Shown here one piece after another: positions 14,646 to 25,677 of a DNA stretch of 64,000 nt. Origin of the DNA: Burkholderia sp. L27(2015). Lineage in GTDB: Bacteria; Pseudomonadota; Gammaproteobacteria; Burkholderiales; Burkholderiaceae. Each line of letters opens with the position of its first letter. Position 1 is the first letter of the stretch. The position numbers and the translations under genes are program-made. The stretch spans positions 1 to 64,000 of the forward strand of contig NZ_LMUX01000017.1 in the NCBI RefSeq assembly GCF_009765705.1, read 5' to 3'. The notes beneath the pieces are model-generated. The model was not told the DNA's origin. It saw nothing but the letters and a program-made list of their open reading frames with translations, and searched no databases.

Positions 14646-15458
14646 TCAGATCTCCAGGATCCCGGTCGCCATGAAGCCGCCGTCGACTGGCAGCGTATGA
14701 CCGTTGATGTAAGAGGCTTCTTCGGAACACAGGAATCGCACCACTGAAGCAATTTCATCGGTCGAGCCGTAGCGGCCCGCCGGCACCACCTTGATATAGT
14801 TGGCTCGCGCTATATCGGAATGCAGCTCCCGCGTGAGCGGCGTCTCGATGGGCCCCGGCGCGATGGCATTGACGGTGATGCCGAACGGCGCCAGCTCGAT
14901 TGCCATTTGGCGCGTCAGTCCCACCACGGCGGCCTTCGACGTGCCATAGGCCGTGCGTCCGGCGCTGGCGCGCAAACCCGCTACCGATGCCAGGTTGACG
15001 ATGCGGCCCCAGCCGTCGCGGTGCATCATGCGTGCGGCGTGTTGGCTGCAAAGCAGAGTGCCCGTCACGTTGACGTCCATGACGCGCTGCCAGTGATCGA
15101 GCGGATAGTCTAGGAATGGGTAGGTCTTGGCAATGCCGGCATTGTTCACGAGGATGTCGCAGTGACCGAAACGCTGGGCCACCGTCTCGAACGCCGTTGC
15201 GATGGCCTGCGGCTTGCCGATATCGAGCTCCAGCACCGAGACGTCCCGGTCTTGCGCTTTGAGCCGCTCGGCCAGTTCACCCGCGGCTTGCAAATTGATG
15301 TCGCCGATAACGACCCGATCGCCCTGGGCCGCGAGCTGCGCGACGATGGCCGCACCGATGCCCGTCGCACCGCCGGTGACGACGGCAACACGGGGGAATT
15401 CGCGGGAAAATTCGCGCGAGCGTGCCGCAACGGTCTTTTGATTGGTATCGGTGTTCAT
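14646..15458 (-). CDS. SDR-family oxidoreductase (FabG-like)
   Basis: NAD(P)-dependent short-chain dehydrogenase/reductase of 270 residues. The cofactor motif is TGGATGIGAAI (about 28-38), followed by NNAGI and the catalytic Ser in NLASVAGL and YxxxK in YGTSK. The C-terminus is SYINGHTLPVDGGF. GGAG lies eight bases before the ATG. It follows the TRAP transporter genes in the same direction across 137 bp, so it may be read with them and act on the imported compound or a 3-oxo/3-hydroxyacyl intermediate. Annotation as 3-oxoacyl-ACP reductase would be by similarity only. Confidence 0.85.
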   Translation of the reverse strand: MNTDTNQKTVAARSREFSREFPRVAVVTGGATGIGAAIVAQLAAQGDRVVIGDINLQAAGELAERLKAQDRDVSVLELDIGKPQAIATAFETVAQRFGHCDILVNNAGIAKTYPFLDYPLDHWQRVMDVNVTGTLLCSQHAARMMHRDGWGRIVNLASVAGLRASAGRTAYGTSKAAVVGLTRQMAIELAPFGITVNAIAPGPIETPLTRELHSDIARANYIKVVPAGRYGSTDEIASVVRFLCSEEASYINGHTLPVDGGFMATGILEI

Positions 15459-15547: not shown

Positions 15548-15599
15548 GACACTGGGTTAAGTCACTGAGTTAAGTCACTGAGTTAAGTCACTGAGTTAA
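15548..15599. repeat. 13-bp tandem repeat containing the TRAP permease stop codon
   Basis: Three perfect copies of GTCACTGAGTTAA (15561, 15574 and 15587) and one diverged copy (15548). The copy nearest the gene contributes the reverse-strand TAA stop codon of the TRAP permease at 15596-15598. The array fills part of the gap before the SDR gene. Confidence 0.9.
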
Positions 15600-17485
15600 G
15601 ACAGCGGCAGGAAGCCCGTCGAGAGCCATGGCACGAACGCGATGATCAACAGCGCGATCGCAAGTGCCGCCATATAGCTCCAGACCCGGGCGACGACCCG
15701 ATCGGGCGATACCTTGCCGATGGCGCAGGCAGCGTAAAACCCGACGCCCATTGGCGGCGCGAACAGTCCCATGCCCATCGCGAGTATCACCACCATCGCG
15801 TAATGCACGTCGTTGATGCCTAGCGCCCGAGCGACAGGGAACAGCAAAGGGCCGAACAGCACGATTGCCGGTATGCCTTCGAGTACGCTGCCCAGGATCG
15901 CGAAGGTCACGATCGTGATCAGCAAGAAGCCCTGGGCACCCCCCGGTATGTGCTGCATTGCGCCGACCAACGTAGCGGAAAAACCAGACTGGGTGAGCGC
16001 CCAGGCCATCGCGGTTGCCAGGCCGATGATCAGCAGGATTGCGCCCGATAAGGTGGCGGCGTCGACCAGCATCGGGTAGACGCGCTTGAGGTCGATGCGG
16101 CGCCCGCATAGATGCATGATCAAAGCGACCACGACCGTGTAAGCCACGCCCAAGGTCGACACCTCGGTGGCGGTGGCCGCGCCGTCGATCACCGCGGCAC
16201 GTATCAGCATCGGCAAGGCCAGCGCCGGTAAGGCCGCGACAAACGTGCGTGCGATGGTCTTGAGCGGGGCACGCTTGGCGTCGATGGACGGCTGTTGCCG
16301 CGCACGCCGCCAGCAGACAAAAGCGATGGCCAGCGTGGCGATCACCGCCGGCAGCAAGCCTCCGATGAACAACGCGGAAATCGACACACTACATACCGCG
16401 CCTATGGTGATGAGCACCAGGCTTGGCGGTATCGTCTCGGTCATCGCACCGGTGGACGCCAGCAGCGCAACCAGTTCCTCGGGTTTGGAGCCACGTTTTT
16501 GCATCTCCGGAAAGAGCGCGGGCGCGACCGCCGCCATATCGGCCGCCTTCGAACCGGAAATACCGGACACCAGGAACATCGCGCCCAGCAGCACATACTG
16601 CAGACCGCCTCGCACATGGCCGAGCAGCGACGCCATGAAATCGATCAACGTACGTGCCAGTCCACTCAGTTCGATCAGCGCACCGAGCAGCACGAATAGC
16701 GGCACCGCAAGCAGGATCATATTGGACATGCCTTCGTCCATCCGGCTCACGACGATGCCCAACGGCGCCTGCGTCATCAGCGCGATATACGAGAGCGTGG
16801 CCGTGCCGAACGCGAAGGCGATCGGTATGCCGCCCGCCACGCATGCGCCAACCAGCACTACGAAAAACACGATCAAATTGAAATTGCCGATCGCGAGCAG
16901 TTCGGGCCGTGTCAGCCAGAGCAGGGCGGCGAGCACGGCGACGATCGCCACGCCACCGGTCAACTGCGCGCGGCTCGAATGGCTTGCCATCCGGGCTAGC
17001 GCTGCGATCAACATCAGCACCGCGCCGACCGGCAGCGCAGCCACGCGCAAGCCATCGGGAATCTGCAGCGCCGGCGTGGTGATATCCATCTGCTCGATCG
17101 TATGCTGGGCCGCCGGCACGATCACTAGCGCGACGAACACGCAGACCACCAGCGCGCCTAGCGTTTCCAACCAGACGCGCCAGCGCTGCGGCAAGCGATT
17201 GACCAGCGCGGTCAGGCGCATATGCTCACCACGATGCAACGCCAGTACCGCACCCAACATCGCCAGCCAACTGAAGAGCACGGAGGCGAGCTCGTCGGAC
17301 CAAGTCAACGGGTTATCGAAGACATAGCGCGAAATCACACCGGCCAGCAGGATCAGTGTCTCGGCGACCAGTAGCGCTGCCGCCACCGCACCGACCGCTT
17401 TCATCAGCCACTGCACCACGGTGTCCAGTGCCGTCGCGCCAGCGATGGCGCGCGGTATGGGGGTATCGGTACTGAGCACAGACAT
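15596..17485 (-). CDS. TRAP transporter, fused DctQ-DctM membrane subunit
   Basis: Single 629-residue protein joining the small (DctQ, about residues 15-180, four helices, SRYVFDNPLTWSDELASVLF) and large (DctM, about residues 190-629) membrane subunits of a tripartite ATP-independent periplasmic transporter. DctM features include GGIPIAFAFG, ISGSKAADMAAVAP and PPMGVGFYAACAIGKVSPD. It imports an organic acid by ion-coupled symport with the binding protein encoded just upstream. The ATG at 17485 overlaps the stop of the binding-protein gene by one base (TAATG), so translation is coupled. The substrate is unknown; the adjacent ligase and thiolase suggest a carboxylate degraded as a CoA ester. 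Confidence 0.9.
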   Translation of the reverse strand: MSVLSTDTPIPRAIAGATALDTVVQWLMKAVGAVAAALLVAETLILLAGVISRYVFDNPLTWSDELASVLFSWLAMLGAVLALHRGEHMRLTALVNRLPQRWRVWLETLGALVVCVFVALVIVPAAQHTIEQMDITTPALQIPDGLRVAALPVGAVLMLIAALARMASHSSRAQLTGGVAIVAVLAALLWLTRPELLAIGNFNLIVFFVVLVGACVAGGIPIAFAFGTATLSYIALMTQAPLGIVVSRMDEGMSNMILLAVPLFVLLGALIELSGLARTLIDFMASLLGHVRGGLQYVLLGAMFLVSGISGSKAADMAAVAPALFPEMQKRGSKPEELVALLASTGAMTETIPPSLVLITIGAVCSVSISALFIGGLLPAVIATLAIAFVCWRRARQQPSIDAKRAPLKTIARTFVAALPALALPMLIRAAVIDGAATATEVSTLGVAYTVVVALIMHLCGRRIDLKRVYPMLVDAATLSGAILLIIGLATAMAWALTQSGFSATLVGAMQHIPGGAQGFLLITIVTFAILGSVLEGIPAIVLFGPLLFPVARALGINDVHYAMVVILAMGMGLFAPPMGVGFYAACAIGKVSPDRVVARVWSYMAALAIALLIIAFVPWLSTGFLPLS

Positions 17486-18558
17486 TAGGCTAGCTTCCCG
17501 GTGTATTTCTCCAGCAAAGCCCACGACTCGTCGCCGAATTTTTTATGCCATTCGGTGTAAAAGCCGGCCGCCGTGAGCTGCTGGCGAAACGCTGCGTAGT
17601 CGATCTCGTTGAACTGCATGCCATGCGACTTGAGATCGCTCATCAGCGAGTTGTTGAGCTTGAGCACGTCGGCGCGTTCCTGGACACCGGCGTCATTGAC
17701 CGCGCTGCGCACGATCTGTTGCAGGTCGGCCGGCAGGCGCGCGAACGACTGCTTGTTGGCGAGGAACCAGAAGCCGTCCCACATGTGGTTGGTCAGCGCA
17801 CAGTATTTCTGGACTTCGTAGAGCTTGGCCGTGGCGATAATCGCGAGCGGGTTCTCCTGACCTTCGACGATATGGGTTTGCAGGGCGGAATACACTTCGG
17901 CGAAATTGATGCTGGCGGGCGACGCACCGAAGGCCTTGAACATCGAGGTCCACAAGGGGCTGGTAGGCACCCGCAGTTTCAAGCCCTTCAAATCCTCGGG
18001 TTTGAGGATGGGCTTGGCGCTCGTGGTGGTTTGGCGATAACCGTTGTCCCAGATTTTTTCGAAGGCGAAGACCGTGGTTTTTGCGATCTCGTTGCGGACA
18101 TGCGCACCCAGCTCGCCATCCATGGCAGCCCACACCTGGTCGTAATTTTTGAACGCAAAGCCCAGGCCGCTGATTTGCGCGGCCGGCACCAGCGTGCCGA
18201 GTATCAACGGCGACAACGTGAAATAGTCGATCGCCCCCGAGCGGATCTGCGACAGCATGTCGGTGTCGCTGCCGAGCTGGTTGTTCGGATAGACCTGGAA
18301 ATCGACACGGCCCTTCGATTCGGTGGCGATGCGCGTGGCCATTTCGTGGGCGCGCACATTCATCGGATGAGTGACCGGCAGGTTGTTCGCGTATTTCAGC
18401 GTAAATTCCGCGGCGCGGGCATTCAGGCTTATCAGCCCTGTCGCGCAAACACCAGCAACCCCTGCCGTTTTTAGAAACGTGCGGCGCGACAGTGAACTGG
18501 CGCTGGCGGCGCTGGTGGCTCGGGGGGTGTCGTTGCGACTGTTTTGGCTAAAGCCCAT
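17485..18558 (-). CDS. TRAP transporter solute-binding protein (DctP family)
   Basis: Periplasmic binding protein of 357 residues. The N-terminus has a twin-arginine-type signal (SRRTFLKTAGVAG, then a hydrophobic run ending NARAA). The DctP fold is shown by ANNLPVTHPMNVRAHEMA, YPNNQLGSDTDMLSQIRSGA and LKGLKLRVP, with the conserved ligand-carboxylate Arg in the last. It delivers the substrate to the fused DctQM protein encoded next. The leader carries a sigma-54-type promoter at 18683-18697, so the operon is probably activated rather than constitutive. Confidence 0.9.
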   Translation of the reverse strand: MGFSQNSRNDTPRATSAASASSLSRRTFLKTAGVAGVCATGLISLNARAAEFTLKYANNLPVTHPMNVRAHEMATRIATESKGRVDFQVYPNNQLGSDTDMLSQIRSGAIDYFTLSPLILGTLVPAAQISGLGFAFKNYDQVWAAMDGELGAHVRNEIAKTTVFAFEKIWDNGYRQTTTSAKPILKPEDLKGLKLRVPTSPLWTSMFKAFGASPASINFAEVYSALQTHIVEGQENPLAIIATAKLYEVQKYCALTNHMWDGFWFLANKQSFARLPADLQQIVRSAVNDAGVQERADVLKLNNSLMSDLKSHGMQFNEIDYAAFRQQLTAAGFYTEWHKKFGDESWALLEKYTGKLA

Positions 18559-18682
18559 CGTGATCTCCTGATTTTTATGGATGCATGCGCAAGGACATGC
18601 ATGAGGACGTGCGCCTCGTCGTTATGGTTTGCTGTCGTTTGCCGCGCTGTGTCGTCATGTGTCGTGACAGCACTTTCGATGA

Positions 18683-18697
18683 GCAAGTTGAATGCCA
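18683..18697 (-). promoter_or_regulatory. Candidate sigma-54 promoter of the TRAP operon
   Basis: On the minus strand the sequence reads TGGCATTCAACTTGC, matching TGGCAC-N5-TTGC at all bases but one with exact GG/GC spacing. Transcription would start near 18671 and give a leader of about 113 bases. It mirrors a second such promoter firing the other way at 19070. Confidence 0.65.
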
Positions 18698-18824
18698 AAG
18701 TGCGTGATTTGGCCTTGGGGGTTTTCCCTGCTCGGCGCGTGCAGCCAGCGCGTGCGAGGGTTTGCGTGCATGCGAAGTGCTGCAACGCGACGCCGACGTG
18801 GCGAATGCGCGCGCTTTGCTGCGG

Positions 18825-18907
18825 TGCGACACAGCGCGCGCAGCTTCACATGTGTCGCATGACCAACAAGCCCGATGAACAGGTGTCTAGTGTTATGCGA
18901 CACATGT
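18825..18907. promoter_or_regulatory. Candidate activator-binding region between two divergent sigma-54 promoters
   Basis: Contains the perfect 13-bp inverted repeat ACATGTGTCGCAT (18848-18860) and ATGCGACACATGT (18895-18907), plus a third half-site TGCGACACA (18825-18833), itself an inverted repeat with the middle copy. Two further TGTGTCG copies occur at 18648 and 18658. The region lies about 130-210 bp upstream of the minus-strand promoter and 160-250 bp upstream of the plus-strand promoter, where sigma-54 activators bind. Confidence 0.6.
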
Positions 18908-19069
18908 ACGTAGGGTCAGTGTGTCCAGTTCGCGTCTTTTGCCCTATGATCGAATTTCGAATCGAGCGAGCGGCAACTTAGGCAGCACGCCTGTAGCGTC
19001 GATGTGCCGTGGTGTTGCACGACTTGCAGGTCCGGCAGACCTGGCCGATCCGGTGACGGCGGCCGCGGC

Positions 19070-19084
19070 TGGCACTGCTCTTGC
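19070..19084 (+). promoter_or_regulatory. Candidate sigma-54 promoter of the thiolase-ligase operon
   Basis: TGGCACTGCTCTTGC matches the consensus TGGCAC-N5-TTGC perfectly, with correct GG/GC spacing. The predicted start near 19096 leaves a 23-base leader to the ATG at 19119, which has its own GGAG. This also supports the choice of that ATG over longer upstream readings of the frame. Confidence 0.72.
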
Positions 19085-19118
19085 TCATACCCCTGCATAC
19101 CTCACGATGGAGTACGCA

Positions 19119-20288
19119 ATGTCTGAACCCTGCATAACCGGCTGGAGCCACACGAAATTCGGCAAACTGGACAATATTGAACCCGAGGAGCTGATTGGCC
19201 AGGTCGCGCGCGCAGCGCTAGAACATGCGGGCGTAGATCCCTGCGAAATCGATTCGGTCCATGTCGGCATGTTCAACGGCGGATTCGTCTATCAGGATTT
19301 TCCTTCGACACTGGTGTTCAACTCGATACCGGAACTGCGCTTCGCTTCGACGGTGCGCTGCGAGAACGCGTGCGCGACCGGGTCCGCCGCGATCTATTCG
19401 GCACTCGACGCGATTCGCTCCGGCCGCACCCAACGCGCGTTGGTGATTGGCGTCGAAAAGATGACGGGCCTGCCCACTGCGGAAGTGGGCGACATCCTGC
19501 TCAAGTGTTCGTACGCGAAAGAAGAAGCGGGCATACCCGGTGGCTTCGCCGGCGTATTCGGTGAAATCGCCAAGGCTTATTTCGAACGCTATGGCGATCA
19601 GTCCGACGCGCTTGCCGCGATCGCCGCGAAGAATCACAAGAACGGCGTGAGCAACCCGTACGCCCATATGCAGCGCGATTTCGGCTTCGATTTCTGCCGC
19701 ACGCCTTCGGAGAAAAATCCATTCGTGGCCGGCCCGCTCAAGCGCACCGACTGCTCGTTGGTGTCGGACGGCGCGGCCGCGCTGGTTATCACCACCGAGG
19801 ATCTCGCGCGCAGCGCACCGCAGGCCATCCGCTTTCGCGCCACCGCGCAGGTCAGCGATTATTTGCCGCTGTCCAAGCGCGATCCGATTGCGTTTGAAGG
19901 CGGCACGCGCGCGTGGGCAAAGGCGCTCGCGCAAGCGAACTTGAAATTGCACGACCTGTCGTTTGTCGAAACGCACGATTGCTTCACGATTGCCGAATTG
20001 ATCGAATACGAAGCGATGGGCTTGGCCGATCGCGGACAGGGCGCACGCGTGATACTGGACGGTGTCAGCGCCCGCGATGGCGCGCTGCCGATCAACCCGT
20101 CGGGCGGCTTGAAAAGCAAGGGTCATCCGATCGGCGCTACCGGTGTTTCGATGCACGTGATGGCGGCCATGCAACTTTCGGGGCAGGCCGGCACGATGCA
20201 ACTGCCTAAAGCGCAATTGGGCGGCGTCTTCAACATGGGTGGCGCGGCGGTAAGCAATTACGTCAGCATTCTGGAAGCGCTGCGTTAG
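19119..20288 (+). CDS. Acyl-CoA thiolase of the SCP-x type
   Basis: Thiolase-family enzyme of 389 residues that probably cleaves a 3-oxoacyl-CoA with CoA. The nucleophilic Cys lies in ENACATGSAAI; HDCF (in SFVETHDCFTIAELIEYE) replaces the NEAF motif of classical thiolases and supplies the second Cys; GGLKSKGHPIGATG holds the active-site His. The C-terminus reads VFNMGGAAV without the CGGG Cys of classical thiolases. All this fits the SCP2/SCP-x thiolase branch, often active on branched or bulky acyl chains. GGAG supports the ATG. It forms an operon with the ligase gene 64 bp downstream. Confidence 0.87.
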   Translation: MSEPCITGWSHTKFGKLDNIEPEELIGQVARAALEHAGVDPCEIDSVHVGMFNGGFVYQDFPSTLVFNSIPELRFASTVRCENACATGSAAIYSALDAIRSGRTQRALVIGVEKMTGLPTAEVGDILLKCSYAKEEAGIPGGFAGVFGEIAKAYFERYGDQSDALAAIAAKNHKNGVSNPYAHMQRDFGFDFCRTPSEKNPFVAGPLKRTDCSLVSDGAAALVITTEDLARSAPQAIRFRATAQVSDYLPLSKRDPIAFEGGTRAWAKALAQANLKLHDLSFVETHDCFTIAELIEYEAMGLADRGQGARVILDGVSARDGALPINPSGGLKSKGHPIGATGVSMHVMAAMQLSGQAGTMQLPKAQLGGVFNMGGAAVSNYVSILEALR

Positions 20289-20352: not shown

Positions 20353-21918
20353 ATGCTGACCCAAGTCATGAACCTCGGCAATCTGCTTACCGAGGTCGCG
20401 CGCCGGCATCCCGACGAACCGGGTTTGATCATCGGCGACACCGTGCACACCTGGCGCGCGATCAATACCCGTGTCGACGCGCTCGCGCACGCCTTGCGCG
20501 AACGCGGCATCGGTCACGGCGACAAGATCCTCGTGCATTCGCGCAATAACCTGCCGATGTTCGAGAGCGCCTGGGTAGCATTCAAGCTCGGTGCAGTGTG
20601 GGTGCCGACCAATGTGCGCATGACGCCGACTGAAGTTGCCTATCTCGGAGAGTCGAGCGGCGCAAAAGTGATGATTTACGACACCGGCTACGCCGCCTAT
20701 GTCGATGCGGTGCAGGCCGGGGGTCTGCTCGAACACGTCGTGGCCATGACGGCACCGCGCGACGGCGAACTCGATTTTGAAGCGCTGGCGACGGGGCCGG
20801 CGACGGTTTTTGATGCGGCCGCGGTCGATCGAGACGATCCCATCTGGTTTTTTTATACCTCAGGCACGACGGGCCATCCGAAGGCCGGCATGCTCACGCA
20901 TGGCCAGTTCGCGTTCGTGATCAATAACCATCTGGCCGATCTGATGCCGGGCCTGACGTATCGCTCGCGTTCGCTCGCGGTCGCGCCGTTGTCGCACGGT
21001 GCCGGCATTCATGCGGTGATCAATGCGGCGCGCGGCGCGGCCACGATTTTGCCACTCTCGGACAAGCTGGATCCACAAGAGGTCTGGCAATTGGTGGAGC
21101 GGCACCGCGTCGACAACATGTTCACGGTGCCTACCATCGTCAAGATGCTCACCGAGGATCCCGCGGTCGATCGCTATGATCACAGCTCGCTGCGTTTCGT
21201 CATCTACGCAGGCGCACCGATGTACCGCGCCGACCAATGTCATGCGCTCAAGAAGCTGGGCCAGGTGCTGGTGCAGTATTACGGACTGGGCGAGGTGACC
21301 GGCAATATCACGGTGCTGCCGGCATGGCTGCATACCGCCGACGATAACGCGCCCAACGCTCGCGTGGGCACCTGCGGCTATGCGCGCACCGGCATGGAAA
21401 TCGCCATTCTCGACGCCGATGGGCAGTGCCAGAAACCGTTTGCGACCGGCGAGATCTGCGTGCGAGGACCGGCCGTTTTTATCGGGTATTACAACAATCC
21501 CGAAGCGAACCAGAAGAGTTTCAAACATGGCTGGTTTCATACGGGCGACCTGGGGCATCTCGATGAGGAGGGTTTTCTGTATATCACCGGGCGGGCCTCC
21601 GATATGTATATTTCGGGCGGCTCCAATGTCTATCCGCGGGAAATCGAAGAGGCTTTGTTGAAACACCCGGCCGTTCATGAAGTGGCGGTGCTGGGCATGC
21701 CGGATGCGAAATGGGGTGAGAGCGGTGTGGCCGTGGTGGTCTGCAAGCCGGGGCAAAGCGTGGATGCGCAAGCGCTGCTGGCGCATATCGAGCCGTGCAT
21801 CGCCAAATACAAATGGCCCCGGCAATTCCTGTTCTGGGATTCGCTGCCCAAGTCCGGCTACGGGAAGATCGTGAAGAAAACCATACGCGCGATGTTGGAG
21901 CAGGAGCAAACGGTTTGA
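20353..21918 (+). CDS. Acyl-CoA synthetase (AMP-forming), substrate unknown
   Basis: Adenylate-forming ligase of 521 residues that activates a carboxylic acid to its CoA thioester with ATP. The P-loop-like motif is YTSGTTGHPKAGMLTH (about 174-189), followed by YYGLGEVTGN, the ribose-binding Asp in HTGDLGHLDEEGFLYITGR, the hinge GRASDMYISGG, and the catalytic Lys near the C-terminus (PKSGYGKIVKK). It would activate the acid brought in by the TRAP transporter. A long-chain fatty-acid label would be by homology only; TRAP import argues for a smaller soluble acid. Confidence 0.88.
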   Translation: MLTQVMNLGNLLTEVARRHPDEPGLIIGDTVHTWRAINTRVDALAHALRERGIGHGDKILVHSRNNLPMFESAWVAFKLGAVWVPTNVRMTPTEVAYLGESSGAKVMIYDTGYAAYVDAVQAGGLLEHVVAMTAPRDGELDFEALATGPATVFDAAAVDRDDPIWFFYTSGTTGHPKAGMLTHGQFAFVINNHLADLMPGLTYRSRSLAVAPLSHGAGIHAVINAARGAATILPLSDKLDPQEVWQLVERHRVDNMFTVPTIVKMLTEDPAVDRYDHSSLRFVIYAGAPMYRADQCHALKKLGQVLVQYYGLGEVTGNITVLPAWLHTADDNAPNARVGTCGYARTGMEIAILDADGQCQKPFATGEICVRGPAVFIGYYNNPEANQKSFKHGWFHTGDLGHLDEEGFLYITGRASDMYISGGSNVYPREIEEALLKHPAVHEVAVLGMPDAKWGESGVAVVVCKPGQSVDAQALLAHIEPCIAKYKWPRQFLFWDSLPKSGYGKIVKKTIRAMLEQEQTV

Positions 21919-22054: not shown

Positions 22055-23224
22055 TTAGTGGATGCGCCTGAGCGCGGGGTGCGTTTCCACGCCATGGGGA
22101 GCCGCCCGGGGGCTTGGCATATCGCTGGCCGATATCAGGTCACGGCCCATGTCGCGCACATGAGGGATGTCGAATTGCTTGAGCTTGCGATACAGCGACG
22201 CTCGACACATGCCCAGGCGACGCGCGGCAGCCGAGATATTCCAGCGGCTTTCCGCCAAGACGCGTATCAAGGTGTTGCGTTCCTCGCGCTGCTCGTGTGC
22301 GGCTGGCGCGCTCTGGATAAACGCATCGTTGGAACTGCCCGCGTGCACGTAGGGTAGCGGCGTTGCCGGTTGCGCCACGGTGACCGAGGTACGCGGCTTT
22401 TGCGTGATCTGGGCGGGCAAGTCGGCTAGCGTAACGGTGTCGCCGTTTTTCACCGCGCAGGCGTAGCGTAAAGCGGCACGCATCTGCCGCAGGTTGCCGG
22501 GCCACGTATAGGTCATCAACAAGTCGAGCGCGTCGGCGCAAAGCGTGTCGTCCAGCGTGCGGCCCGGCATCTCCTCGGTCAGCATGCTTTGCAGCAGCCA
22601 GGCACGGTCGTCGCGTTCGCGCAGAGCCGGCAATTCCAACACGCCGACCGCGATCCGGTAATACAAATCCTCGCGGAATTCGCCACGCTCCACGCGTTGG
22701 GCCAGGTCCTGATGCGTGGCGCAGATCAGTTGCACGTCCACCGCGATCGGTTGCGCGGCGCCGATCGGCGTGACTTCGCCTTCCGAGAGCACACGCAGTA
22801 GACGCGTTTGTTGCGCGGCCGGCATATCGCCCACTTCGTCGAGAAACAAGGTGCCTCGATCGGCCAGCACGACCTTGCCCTTCATGCCGCCAGGTAGTGC
22901 GCCCGAAAATGCGCCACGTTGATAGCCGAACAGCTCGCTTTCAACCAGGTTGTCCGGAATGGATGCGCAATTGAGCGCAATCAGCGCCGCGCGCCGCCGA
23001 CGGCTGTACTTGTGTAACGCACGTGCCAGATATTCCTTGCCGGTGCCCGTCTCGCCGAGCAGCAGCAGCGGCAACTGGCGATCGATCAGTCGACGAGCAC
23101 GCTCCAACAGGGTGTGCATCGAAGAACGAGGGCCGCATAAGTGGTCTAGCGGTAGATAGGGAGTCAGGCTTACTCCGGGGCTTGCTCCTGAAAGCGGGCA
23201 TTCCTGCGCGTCGTGGGCGGTCAT
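22055..23224 (-). CDS. Sigma-54 activator lacking an N-terminal sensory domain (AcoR-like core)
   Basis: Enhancer-binding protein of 389 residues made only of the AAA+ motor and a Fis-type helix-turn-helix. Walker A is GETGTGKE (57-64), the sigma-54 loop GAFSGA (104-109, Ser for Thr), Walker B GTLFLDEVGDMP, the arginine-finger region FREDLYYRI, sensor II YTWPGNLRQM, and the HTH SRWNISAAARRLGMCRASLY. The AAA+ part resembles AcoR proteins, which carry about 300 more N-terminal residues including a GAF domain. Here the LysR gene starts 163 bp upstream, leaving no room for one. It is the likely activator of the three sigma-54 promoters in this island. Confidence 0.88.
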   Translation of the reverse strand: MTAHDAQECPLSGASPGVSLTPYLPLDHLCGPRSSMHTLLERARRLIDRQLPLLLLGETGTGKEYLARALHKYSRRRRAALIALNCASIPDNLVESELFGYQRGAFSGALPGGMKGKVVLADRGTLFLDEVGDMPAAQQTRLLRVLSEGEVTPIGAAQPIAVDVQLICATHQDLAQRVERGEFREDLYYRIAVGVLELPALRERDDRAWLLQSMLTEEMPGRTLDDTLCADALDLLMTYTWPGNLRQMRAALRYACAVKNGDTVTLADLPAQITQKPRTSVTVAQPATPLPYVHAGSSNDAFIQSAPAAHEQREERNTLIRVLAESRWNISAAARRLGMCRASLYRKLKQFDIPHVRDMGRDLISASDMPSPRAAPHGVETHPALRRIH

Positions 23225-23355: not shown

Positions 23356-23372
23356 ATTAGGCATCGAATAAT
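23356..23372. promoter_or_regulatory. Candidate LysR box before the island's LysR gene
   Basis: ATTA-N9-TAAT palindrome 15 bp before the LysR ATG, with T-N11-A geometry, in the divergent region between the LysR gene and the sigma-54 activator gene. It could allow autoregulation and control of the activator. The arms are short, so the call is tentative. Confidence 0.4.
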
Positions 23373-23387
23373 ACCCGTGAGGTATCA

Positions 23388-24305
23388 ATGATAGAACTCA
23401 GGCATTTTCGCTATTTCACTGTATTGGCCGAAACGCTGCATTACGGACGCGCGGCCGAGATTCTGCACATCTCGCAACCGCCGTTGTCGCGCCTGATCGT
23501 GGCGCTGGAAGAAGAGCTGGGCGTGGTGCTGTTCGAGCGTACCCGGCGCAGCGTGCGTTTGTCGGCGGCTGGCGAGCGTTTTTATCAAGACGCGAAGGGG
23601 ATCCTGACCGCTGTCGAGCGGGCGCGTGGCAACGCGCGCTCAGCCAGCTTGGGCGAAGAAGGGGCGTTGTCGGTGGGGTTCATGTACGCGGCTGCGTATA
23701 GCGTGTTGCCGCCGTTGACCCGTGCCTACGCGTCGGCATTTCCGCGCGTGGACATGAAATTGGGAGAAACCATACCGACCTTGCTGCTGGAAGACATACG
23801 CAACGGCAAAACCGACGTCGGCATCATGTATCCCCCTGATGTGCTGGACGGTCTGGAAAGCCGGCAGGTATTTCGCGAACCGCTGGTCGCCGTGCTGCCC
23901 GCCGATCATGCGTTGGCCGGCGCGGCTTCGATTGCGGTGCGGGATCTGGGCGATGAATCGTTCATCATTTCGCCACGTGTGGCCTCGACCTTTATCTACG
24001 ACACGATAGTCAGTTACTGCCGACGTGCCGGCTTTGCACCGCGCATTCGTCTGGAGACGAATTTTCAGCAAACCATTATCAATCTGGTTGGGCAAGGGCT
24101 GGGGGTGGCGCTCGTGCATCGTTCGATGCAAAGCACTCATGCCGACAACGTGCGTTTCGTGCCGCTCAAGGCGCCGCCGTTCGTGGACGTGTTCGTGGTC
24201 TGGAGCCGCGATAACTTCAACCCGTGCGTAGAGCACTTTGTGACGACCGCCGCCTCGGTTTGGGCGCGCGAGCATGACGAAATCAGCGATCGGCCGCTTC
24301 GTTAG
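23388..24305 (+). CDS. LysR-family regulator of the catabolic island
   Basis: LysR-type regulator of 305 residues. The helix-turn-helix is HYGRAAEILHISQPPLSRLI (about 18-37); the effector domain has GALSVGFMYAAAYSVLPPL and a C-terminal GQGLGVALVHRSMQ. GAGG stands before the ATG. It is divergent from the GAF-less sigma-54 activator gene and upstream of the PPC-gene pair. A plausible role is to sense the catabolic substrate and set the level of the activator, which has no sensor of its own. That link is inferred from arrangement only. Confidence 0.87.
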   Translation: MIELRHFRYFTVLAETLHYGRAAEILHISQPPLSRLIVALEEELGVVLFERTRRSVRLSAAGERFYQDAKGILTAVERARGNARSASLGEEGALSVGFMYAAAYSVLPPLTRAYASAFPRVDMKLGETIPTLLLEDIRNGKTDVGIMYPPDVLDGLESRQVFREPLVAVLPADHALAGAASIAVRDLGDESFIISPRVASTFIYDTIVSYCRRAGFAPRIRLETNFQQTIINLVGQGLGVALVHRSMQSTHADNVRFVPLKAPPFVDVFVVWSRDNFNPCVEHFVTTAASVWAREHDEISDRPLR

Positions 24306-24325: not shown

Positions 24326-24378
24326 CGCTGGGATGAGTCTGCCTGCGCGCGGGTTCGTCACGCTGGGCGAGGGTGTTA

Positions 24379-24403
24379 CACCTGTCGCTGCTTGCGACAG
24401 GTG
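24379..24403. promoter_or_regulatory. Perfect inverted repeat, candidate sigma-54 activator site
   Basis: Ten-base arms CACCTGTCGC and GCGACAGGTG separated by TGCTT, centred about 120 bp upstream of the -24 element at 24509. It shares the TGTCGC/GCGACA half-site with the repeats at 18825-18907. No T-tract follows, so it is unlikely to be a terminator for the preceding LysR gene. Confidence 0.6.
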
Positions 24404-24508
24404 CACGCCGGCAACGGTCCGCTGACCGTCTCCGAGTCAAACCCGGGACGAGCCCTCACGGCATACCCATCGGGCTTTCTCGCCGCGGCCATACCCGGAC
24501 ACCCAAGG

Positions 24509-24523
24509 TGGCACTTTAATTGC
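24509..24523 (+). promoter_or_regulatory. Candidate sigma-54 promoter of the PPC/DUF296 gene pair
   Basis: TGGCACTTTAATTGC is a full match to TGGCAC-N5-TTGC. Transcription would start near 24535, leaving about 22 bases before the ATG at 24557. Position, spacing and the inverted repeat upstream make this one of the strongest promoter calls in the window. Confidence 0.75.
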
Positions 24524-24556
24524 TTGATAGACAGGTCTCTTTAACTGGTGACTACC

Positions 24557-25219
24557 ATGAACCTGTCTATCCACGGCGCCACAAGCGCGAGTGCGATCGA
24601 GGGGGCCGATCCCAGCCCTCTGTTTAAGCTGAACGCTGCATCCGACCCGGCAGCCGATGCCGACTATCCGCGCCACGCACACAACGAAGCAAATACCGCG
24701 CGGGGCTTTTGCCACCCCGGTGCGGCAACTTCGCCACGACTGCTGTCGGTGCAAATACGTACGCCGCAAGACATGCGTATTACGATTCCATGCGGCGCCA
24801 ATGTCGGAAAGATGTTACGCGATGCGCTCGCGCCTTATCACTACAGCGGCGCGATGGGCTACATCTGCCGCGGCAGCGCACGGGCACTGCAATATCACGT
24901 GATCGTCGCGGCAGCCGAAGGCGATCGTCCTTATATCTACGGCGCGCCGATACGCGAAAGTGGCGAAGCGACCTTCATCAACGGCACCGTCAATTTTGGT
25001 CGCGACGCGAACGGCGCCGTATTGCTGCACTGCCACGGCGGCTATGCCGATACGAACGGCGCGTTGCATGGCGGCCATTTGATACTCGACGAAACCGTGG
25101 TCGGTGCCGAGCCGCTCGTGATGCATCTTTGCCTGTTCGGGCAGGGTGGTTTCGTGCAGGGCGAGGACGAAGAAACGCACTACAAACTATTGCAACCGTA
25201 CGTCGGAGCGCTGCAATGA
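24557..25219 (+). CDS. PPC/DUF296 domain protein, first of two
   Basis: Protein of 220 residues with a roughly 60-residue variable N-terminus and a PPC/DUF296-type domain (about 65-215): RTPQDMRITIPCGANVGKML, VIVAAAEGDRPYIYGAP, HCHGGYADTNGALHGGHL. The domain is shared by plant AT-hook proteins and small bacterial proteins without the AT-hook. The bacterial function is not established; some form trimers, and the conserved His residues here could bind metal. The ATG at 24557 fits the promoter-derived leader; an upstream GTG is possible. Its stop overlaps the next start (ATGA). Confidence 0.72.
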   Translation: MNLSIHGATSASAIEGADPSPLFKLNAASDPAADADYPRHAHNEANTARGFCHPGAATSPRLLSVQIRTPQDMRITIPCGANVGKMLRDALAPYHYSGAMGYICRGSARALQYHVIVAAAEGDRPYIYGAPIRESGEATFINGTVNFGRDANGAVLLHCHGGYADTNGALHGGHLILDETVVGAEPLVMHLCLFGQGGFVQGEDEETHYKLLQPYVGALQ

Positions 25220-25677
25220 ATGCACTATCGAACCCGTCGAGCGACGACCTATCGAGCGACGACCTATCGAGCGAACACGTCAAACTCGAAAGTGGGCATT
25301 ACGGTCGCGTGGTGGTCGCGCGTATCAAACCGAATGAGGATCTGGTCGGCGCACTGGAAGCGCTTTGCACTACGTATGGCATGCAGCGCGCAGTGGTGCG
25401 CGGCGTATTGGGGAGCTTGGTCGATGGACGCCTGAGTTATCGTGCGGCCGACGGGGTGCGAGAGCGGATAATCAAAGGACCTGGCGTCGAAATTCTGAAT
25501 GTCTTCGGCGAAGTCACAGCCGCAGCCATGACGACCAGCAACAGCTCGACTCAACTGAATGCCGCGTTATCTGGAACCGACGGCGCGGTGTACGCAGGGC
25601 GCTTGGTGCGCGGCGCCAACCTGGCGTTTATTACTATCGAGGCGACGCTGCAGGAATGGATTGCCGAGAGCGCTTGA
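25216..25677 (+). CDS. PPC/DUF296 domain protein, second of two
   Basis: Protein of 153 residues made almost only of a PPC/DUF296 domain: SGHYGRVVVARIKPNEDLVG, RAVVRGVLGSLVDGRLS, GPGVEILNVFGEV and YAGRLVRGANLAFITIEATL. It starts inside the stop of the first DUF296 gene, so the two are translationally coupled and may form a hetero-oligomer. Residues 8-20 contain a 15-bp direct duplication giving SSDDLSSDDLSSE. A terminator follows directly. Role in the island unknown. Confidence 0.75.
   Translation: MNALSNPSSDDLSSDDLSSEHVKLESGHYGRVVVARIKPNEDLVGALEALCTTYGMQRAVVRGVLGSLVDGRLSYRAADGVRERIIKGPGVEILNVFGEVTAAAMTTSNSSTQLNAALSGTDGAVYAGRLVRGANLAFITIEATLQEWIAESA

Follow-up and report, generated by a model that had tools for sequence, protein, structure and literature searches.

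A probable shared activating sequence between two divergent sigma-54 operons in Burkholderia sp. L27(2015)

Results

We analysed 64,000 nucleotides of DNA from Burkholderia sp. L27(2015) (the 64-kb window) and found that the region between two divergent operons is, with a probability of roughly 85%, a shared upstream activating sequence, or enhancer. It would serve two opposed sigma-54 promoters, P1 and P2, and would be bound by the sigma-54 activator encoded at 22055-23224. As a prediction from sequence, this reading is carried by comparative data and not by the number of copies of the heptamer that drew attention to the region.

Three operons with sigma-54 promoters

The two operons are separated by a 560-bp gap that runs from dctP (17485-18558, minus strand) to the thiolase start at 19119 on the plus strand. 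Operon 1 comprises dctP, which encodes a TRAP transporter solute-binding protein (Pfam, NCBIfam), a fused dctQM TRAP permease gene (15596-17524, minus; Pfam) and a short-chain dehydrogenase (SDR) gene (14646-15458, minus; Pfam). Operon 2 encodes a thiolase-domain protein (19119-20288, plus; Pfam and NCBIfam PRK07516) and an acyl-CoA synthetase (20353-21918, plus; NCBIfam PRK07470). Sigma-54 promoters were recognized by the -24/-12 pattern TGGCAC-N5-TTGC, which is present in P1 (TGGCATTCAACTTGCT, 18682-18697, minus) for dctP-dctQM-SDR and in P2 (TGGCACTGCTCTTGCT, 19070-19085, plus) for the thiolase and acyl-CoA synthetase genes. P1 agrees with the consensus at 9/10 and P2 at 10/10, and both are kept in orthologs, which bears out the pair of opposed promoters described in the initial annotation. 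Two genes for the sigma-54 factor itself score above the Pfam cut-off in the genome. The dctP-thiolase gap yielded no sigma-70 promoter and, at up to one mismatch, no IHF-like site; the missing IHF-like site counts against the enhancer reading.

A third promoter with the same pattern, P3 (TGGCACTTTAATTGCT, 24509-24524, plus; 10/10), was missing from the earlier description. It precedes a gene for a PCC-domain-like protein (24548-25219, plus), whose PCC match is weak and below the cut-off (E = 0.0019); a second gene, with a clear PCC domain (25216-25677, plus; E = 7e-14), probably belongs to the same operon 3. A similar promoter with similar sites is also found at the loci L069, L149 and L151. 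We also observed an exact IHF consensus match at 24517-24529, overlapping the -12 region of P3.

Heptamers and inverted repeat

We observed TGTGTCG five times in the dctP-thiolase gap, at 18648 and 18658 (plus), 18827 (minus), 18851 (plus) and 18898 (minus), all within 260 bp as originally described. The 13-bp inverted repeat reported with them (18848-18860 with 18895-18907) is indeed perfect and extends to 16 nt at 94%. When the 560-bp gap was shuffled 400 times with dinucleotides preserved, a 13-bp inverted repeat arose in one shuffle and five copies of TGTGTCG itself in none; some heptamer occurred five times in 36 of the 400, which makes the number of heptamers by itself weak evidence. The inverted repeat taken alone is suggestive and not conclusive. 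These figures bear on the possibility that the repeats arose by chance in a G+C-rich gap and have no function. The frequency of fivefold heptamers in shuffled DNA speaks for it, and the copies at 18648 and 18658 are probably of this kind; the rarity of the inverted repeat speaks against it, as does an independent matrix, described below, that finds both arms. Overall, we hold chance to be extremely improbable.

The copies at 18648 and 18658 lie downstream of P1. From its -12 position, the P1 transcription start is predicted near 18671, so both copies would be transcribed as part of the predicted dctP leader. We saw no counterpart of them in relatives and rejected them as operator parts; they probably lie outside the operator.

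A conserved dyad in orthologous gaps

A thiolase search covered 80 named loci, among which the closest matches were from Paraburkholderia, and further genomes of the same family. The element conserved in the orthologous gaps of Paraburkholderia, Herbaspirillum and Pandoraea is a 16-bp dyad, TGCGACA-SS-TGTCGCA, present in one to three copies. TGTGTCG was rejected as the motif, the conserved core being TGTCGCA inside this dyad. The initial proposal of a shared TGTGTCG/TGTCGC operator is thus supported, with amendments: conserved sites do lie between the promoters, but their motif is the dyad, and two of the five heptamers are not part of it. Motif discovery over orthologous gaps, which had been suggested as a check, recovered ACAGGTGTC de novo as the most shared 9-mer, in 11 of 12 representative gaps against at most 5 after shuffling. 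In Herbaspirillum and Pandoraea, the dyad stands between two opposed sigma-54 promoters, both of which are kept; a loss of the repeats in relatives that retain the operons, named at the outset as evidence against the idea, is not what these gaps showed. In the P. fungorum gap, the dyad is retained, the dctP promoter is clear and the thiolase promoter is weaker (8/10).

The exact dyad was present in 42 of 399 family genomes and a reversed control pattern in 7. With up to two mismatches allowed, the dyad was found upstream of the thiolase gene in 15 of the 21 loci that have the activator, compared with 0 of the 48 that lack it (Fisher p ~1e-10, a value that overstates independence because the two groups of loci are not equally distant phylogenetically). 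This co-occurrence and the shared 9-mer largely refute an origin by chance. Along with the separate sites found in Pseudomonas, the co-occurrence also supports the earlier suggestion that one activator, that of 22055-23224, acts for both promoters. At three mismatches, a whole-genome search was uninformative, since it returned fewer matches for the dyad than for the control (155 vs 220). Two motif matches, inside a gcvT-like gene (L002) and inside a dehydratase-like gene (L200), were taken as chance.

Six of the 21 loci are exceptions: P. unamae, P. ferrariae, three Pseudomonas and G036 (by locus label L070, L071 and L151, plus the variant sites in Pseudomonas). P. unamae and P. ferrariae have the genes in one operon, and their sites are confined to the PCC-gene promoter. 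The operons are separated in Pseudomonas, and variant sites there lie upstream of each perfect sigma-54 promoter individually. The recognition helix of the activator is changed in these Pseudomonas loci (L079, L082 and L085; CRPSLYRVL in L079), and the sites also deviate a little (AGCGACAGGTGTCTCC), which may represent a natural change of specificity. G036 (L151:7408-8722) keeps the activator and the operons; its 1.3-kb dctP-thiolase gap contains neither sites nor sigma-54 promoters, and sites are present only at its PCC-gene promoter. G036, P. unamae and P. ferrariae thus weigh against the shared enhancer.

The dyad also accompanies related activators elsewhere. Pandoraea carries a second pair of activator and LysR-type genes at another place in the genome (L189:7229-9874; 58% and 63% identical), and a dyad and sigma-54 promoter of its own precede a phosphopantetheinyl-transferase-like gene there. 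In another genus, two good dyads (8182 and 8205, within L188:8175-8396) and a sigma-54 promoter precede an acetoin-dehydrogenase-like gene, and an AcoR-like activator (45% identical) is encoded some 8 kb from the dyads, at 16008-16994. No LysR relative was found in this 18-kb locus.

Activator sites in the window

A half-site matrix trained on 35 dyads, none of them from the window, was used to scan the ~128,000 window positions. Ranks 1 (24389, minus), 2 (18849, plus), 3 (18892, minus) and 6 (24379, plus) all fell upstream of sigma-54 promoters. Candidate site A (CTTCACATGTGTCGCA, 18844-18859, plus; rank 2) combines the strong half TGTCGCA at 18853-18859 with a weak partner half and coincides with the first arm of the inverted repeat. 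Candidate site C (TGCGACACATGTACGT, 18896-18911, minus; rank 3) has its strong half on the minus strand and coincides with the second arm, its centre 52 bp from that of A. A weaker candidate, site B (18875-18890, plus; rank 18), contains ACAGGTGTC at 18879-18887; its centre lies 31 bp from that of A and 21 bp from that of C. The heptamer at 18827 falls in a possible weak site (TGCGACACAGCGCGCG, 18825-18840, minus) with 4/14 mismatches to the dyad, which scores below the half-site cut-off and is uncertain. Upstream of P3, two candidate sites lie side by side at 24374-24408 (CACCTGTCGC-tgctt-GCGACAGGTG, centres 24381.5 and 24400.5), and these account for two of the four top-ranked hits, ranks 1 and 6.

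The sites lie 134-244 bp from the promoters, within the roughly 80-300 bp typical of sigma-54 enhancers. Frequent spacings between site centres are 20-23, 30-34, 41 and 52 bp, the first three being common in relatives; these approximate whole helical turns, and spacings of 13, 16 and 18 bp, which do not, occur as well. The initial annotation had placed the heptamers midway between the promoters. The inverted repeat is nearly midway, but only three of the five heptamers are between P1 and P2 at all, and the midway position is not conserved: the distance from site to promoter varies widely between species, from about 100 to 446 bp, and a central location is therefore not required.

Unlike most relatives, the window lacks a good full dyad in the stretch from P1 to P2. 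Its dyads there are imperfect and spaced, each with one strong half (4/14 mismatches). This would fit a decayed remnant, in which ancestors used the dyad and the lineage has since lost the full sites and the control between P1 and P2, and the family member G036 has lost its sites from the dctP-thiolase gap altogether. However, P1 and P2 remain close to or at full consensus, the reading frame of the activator is intact with a conserved helix-turn-helix (HTH), and the half-sites outrank nearly all other window positions. We therefore consider decay unlikely and favour a working enhancer between P1 and P2.

The activator and its LysR-type neighbour

The predicted binder (22055-23224, minus) was characterized by Pfam and by an alignment of 11 relatives. 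It consists of a sigma-54 interaction domain of the AAA+ type (PF00158, 2.4e-62) and a Fis-type HTH (PF02954, 1.2e-11). The AAA+ domain begins near residue 31, leaving no sensor domain, and orthologs have the same layout in the aligned region. Its loop reads GAFSGA in place of GAFTGA, a conservative T-to-S variant that is invariant in the 11 relatives.

Divergent from the activator gene and conserved together with it is a gene for a LysR-type regulator (23388-24305, plus; Pfam). The gap between the two contains the box ATACCCGTGAGGTAT (23371-23385), of the form ATAC-N7-GTAT (T-N11-A), the sole match in the window. The same pattern occurs in 17 of 23 orthologous activator-LysR gaps, in most cases some 18 bp ahead of the LysR start, and 24 times in the 1.42 Mb of all large loci, these gaps included. 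A box of this form is typical of LysR-type sites, so both the activator gene and the LysR gene itself are probably under the control of the LysR protein.

Another regulator, for example this co-conserved LysR protein acting as the operon regulator, might bind the dyads instead, with the sigma-54 activator working elsewhere. The LysR gene accompanies the activator in every compared locus that has the activator, so co-occurrence alone fits both proteins and cannot tell which one binds. Other observations point away from a different binder. The activator-LysR gap has a different, typical LysR box, and the dyads keep to enhancer distance from sigma-54 promoters even in rearranged loci. The AcoR-like activator of another genus is likewise associated with these dyads, placed before a sigma-54 promoter, and no LysR relative was found in its locus; in Pseudomonas the sites and the recognition helix of the activator differ together. 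Binding by another regulator thus appears quite unlikely, and we retain the sigma-54 activator as the predicted binder.

Proposed mechanism

In the model that we propose, dimers of the sensorless activator would bind the cluster of imperfect dyads at 18844-18911, possibly starting from 18825, and would reach sigma-54 RNA polymerase at P1 and P2 by DNA looping over ~180-245 bp each. The same activator may use the cluster at 24374-24408 to drive P3. With one protein at both clusters, the transporter, CoA-activation and PCC-domain genes would form one small regulon. Because this protein lacks a sensor domain, its abundance is the probable determinant of its activity; the divergent LysR regulator would control that abundance through the box at 23371-23385, giving a chain from LysR through the activator to three sigma-54 promoters. 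We give about even odds to the full two-tier switch, in which a LysR sensor sets the amount of an always-active sensorless activator that drives three promoters, one enhancer cluster serving the two divergent ones. The module recurs in Burkholderiales and Pseudomonas.

Discussion

Our analysis outlines a putative regulon of three promoters, centred on a TRAP-transporter/thiolase pathway, and presents a natural case of one probable enhancer cluster facing two promoters that lie about equally far from it. For an activator that has no sensor, the LysR box points to a possible route of control. Literature searches returned only unrelated papers for the dyad sequence, no useful lead for HbcR or for the gene set, and no description of this sigma-54 activator, for which a concrete predicted binding motif is now given.

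Sensorless sigma-54 activators such as PspF consist of AAA+ and HTH domains only and lack an N-terminal regulatory domain. The activator described here has this composition too, but it is not a PspF ortholog: its score against the PspF model is 212 bits, well below the cut-off of 443.55, and it has a LysR neighbour. AcoR-type systems are similar in that the activator of 45% identity, encoded near an acetoin-dehydrogenase-like operon in a different genus, is accompanied by the same dyads, whereas the target genes are not the same.

The Desulfovibrio vulgaris orp operons are two divergent sigma-54 operons with one enhancer-binding protein, DVU2106, and palindromic sites (PMC3897727). Our case resembles them in that divergent sigma-54 operons would be activated together by one protein through palindromic sites. 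In the orp system, DVU2106 also represses the sigma-70 promoter of its own gene, with IHF sites located between activator sites and promoters (PMC3897727); in the window, the activator gene stands 4 kb off, beside a LysR gene, and the gap has no IHF-like site that we could find. According to a survey of one-component enhancer-binding-protein regulons in D. vulgaris, most control one to four operons, with conserved dyads near sigma-54 promoters and a co-localised activator gene (PMC4641369). Neither the dyad TGCGACA-SS-TGTCGCA nor the dctP/thiolase gene set was met in the consulted part of the survey; the small size, the dyads near sigma-54 promoters and the nearby activator gene are shared with what it describes (PMC4641369). 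Since divergent sigma-54 operons with one activator and small regulons of this kind are already known, the window case is a further example: for a nutrient-uptake pathway that is apparently unstudied, it appears to be a genuine bacterial switch of an ordinary type.
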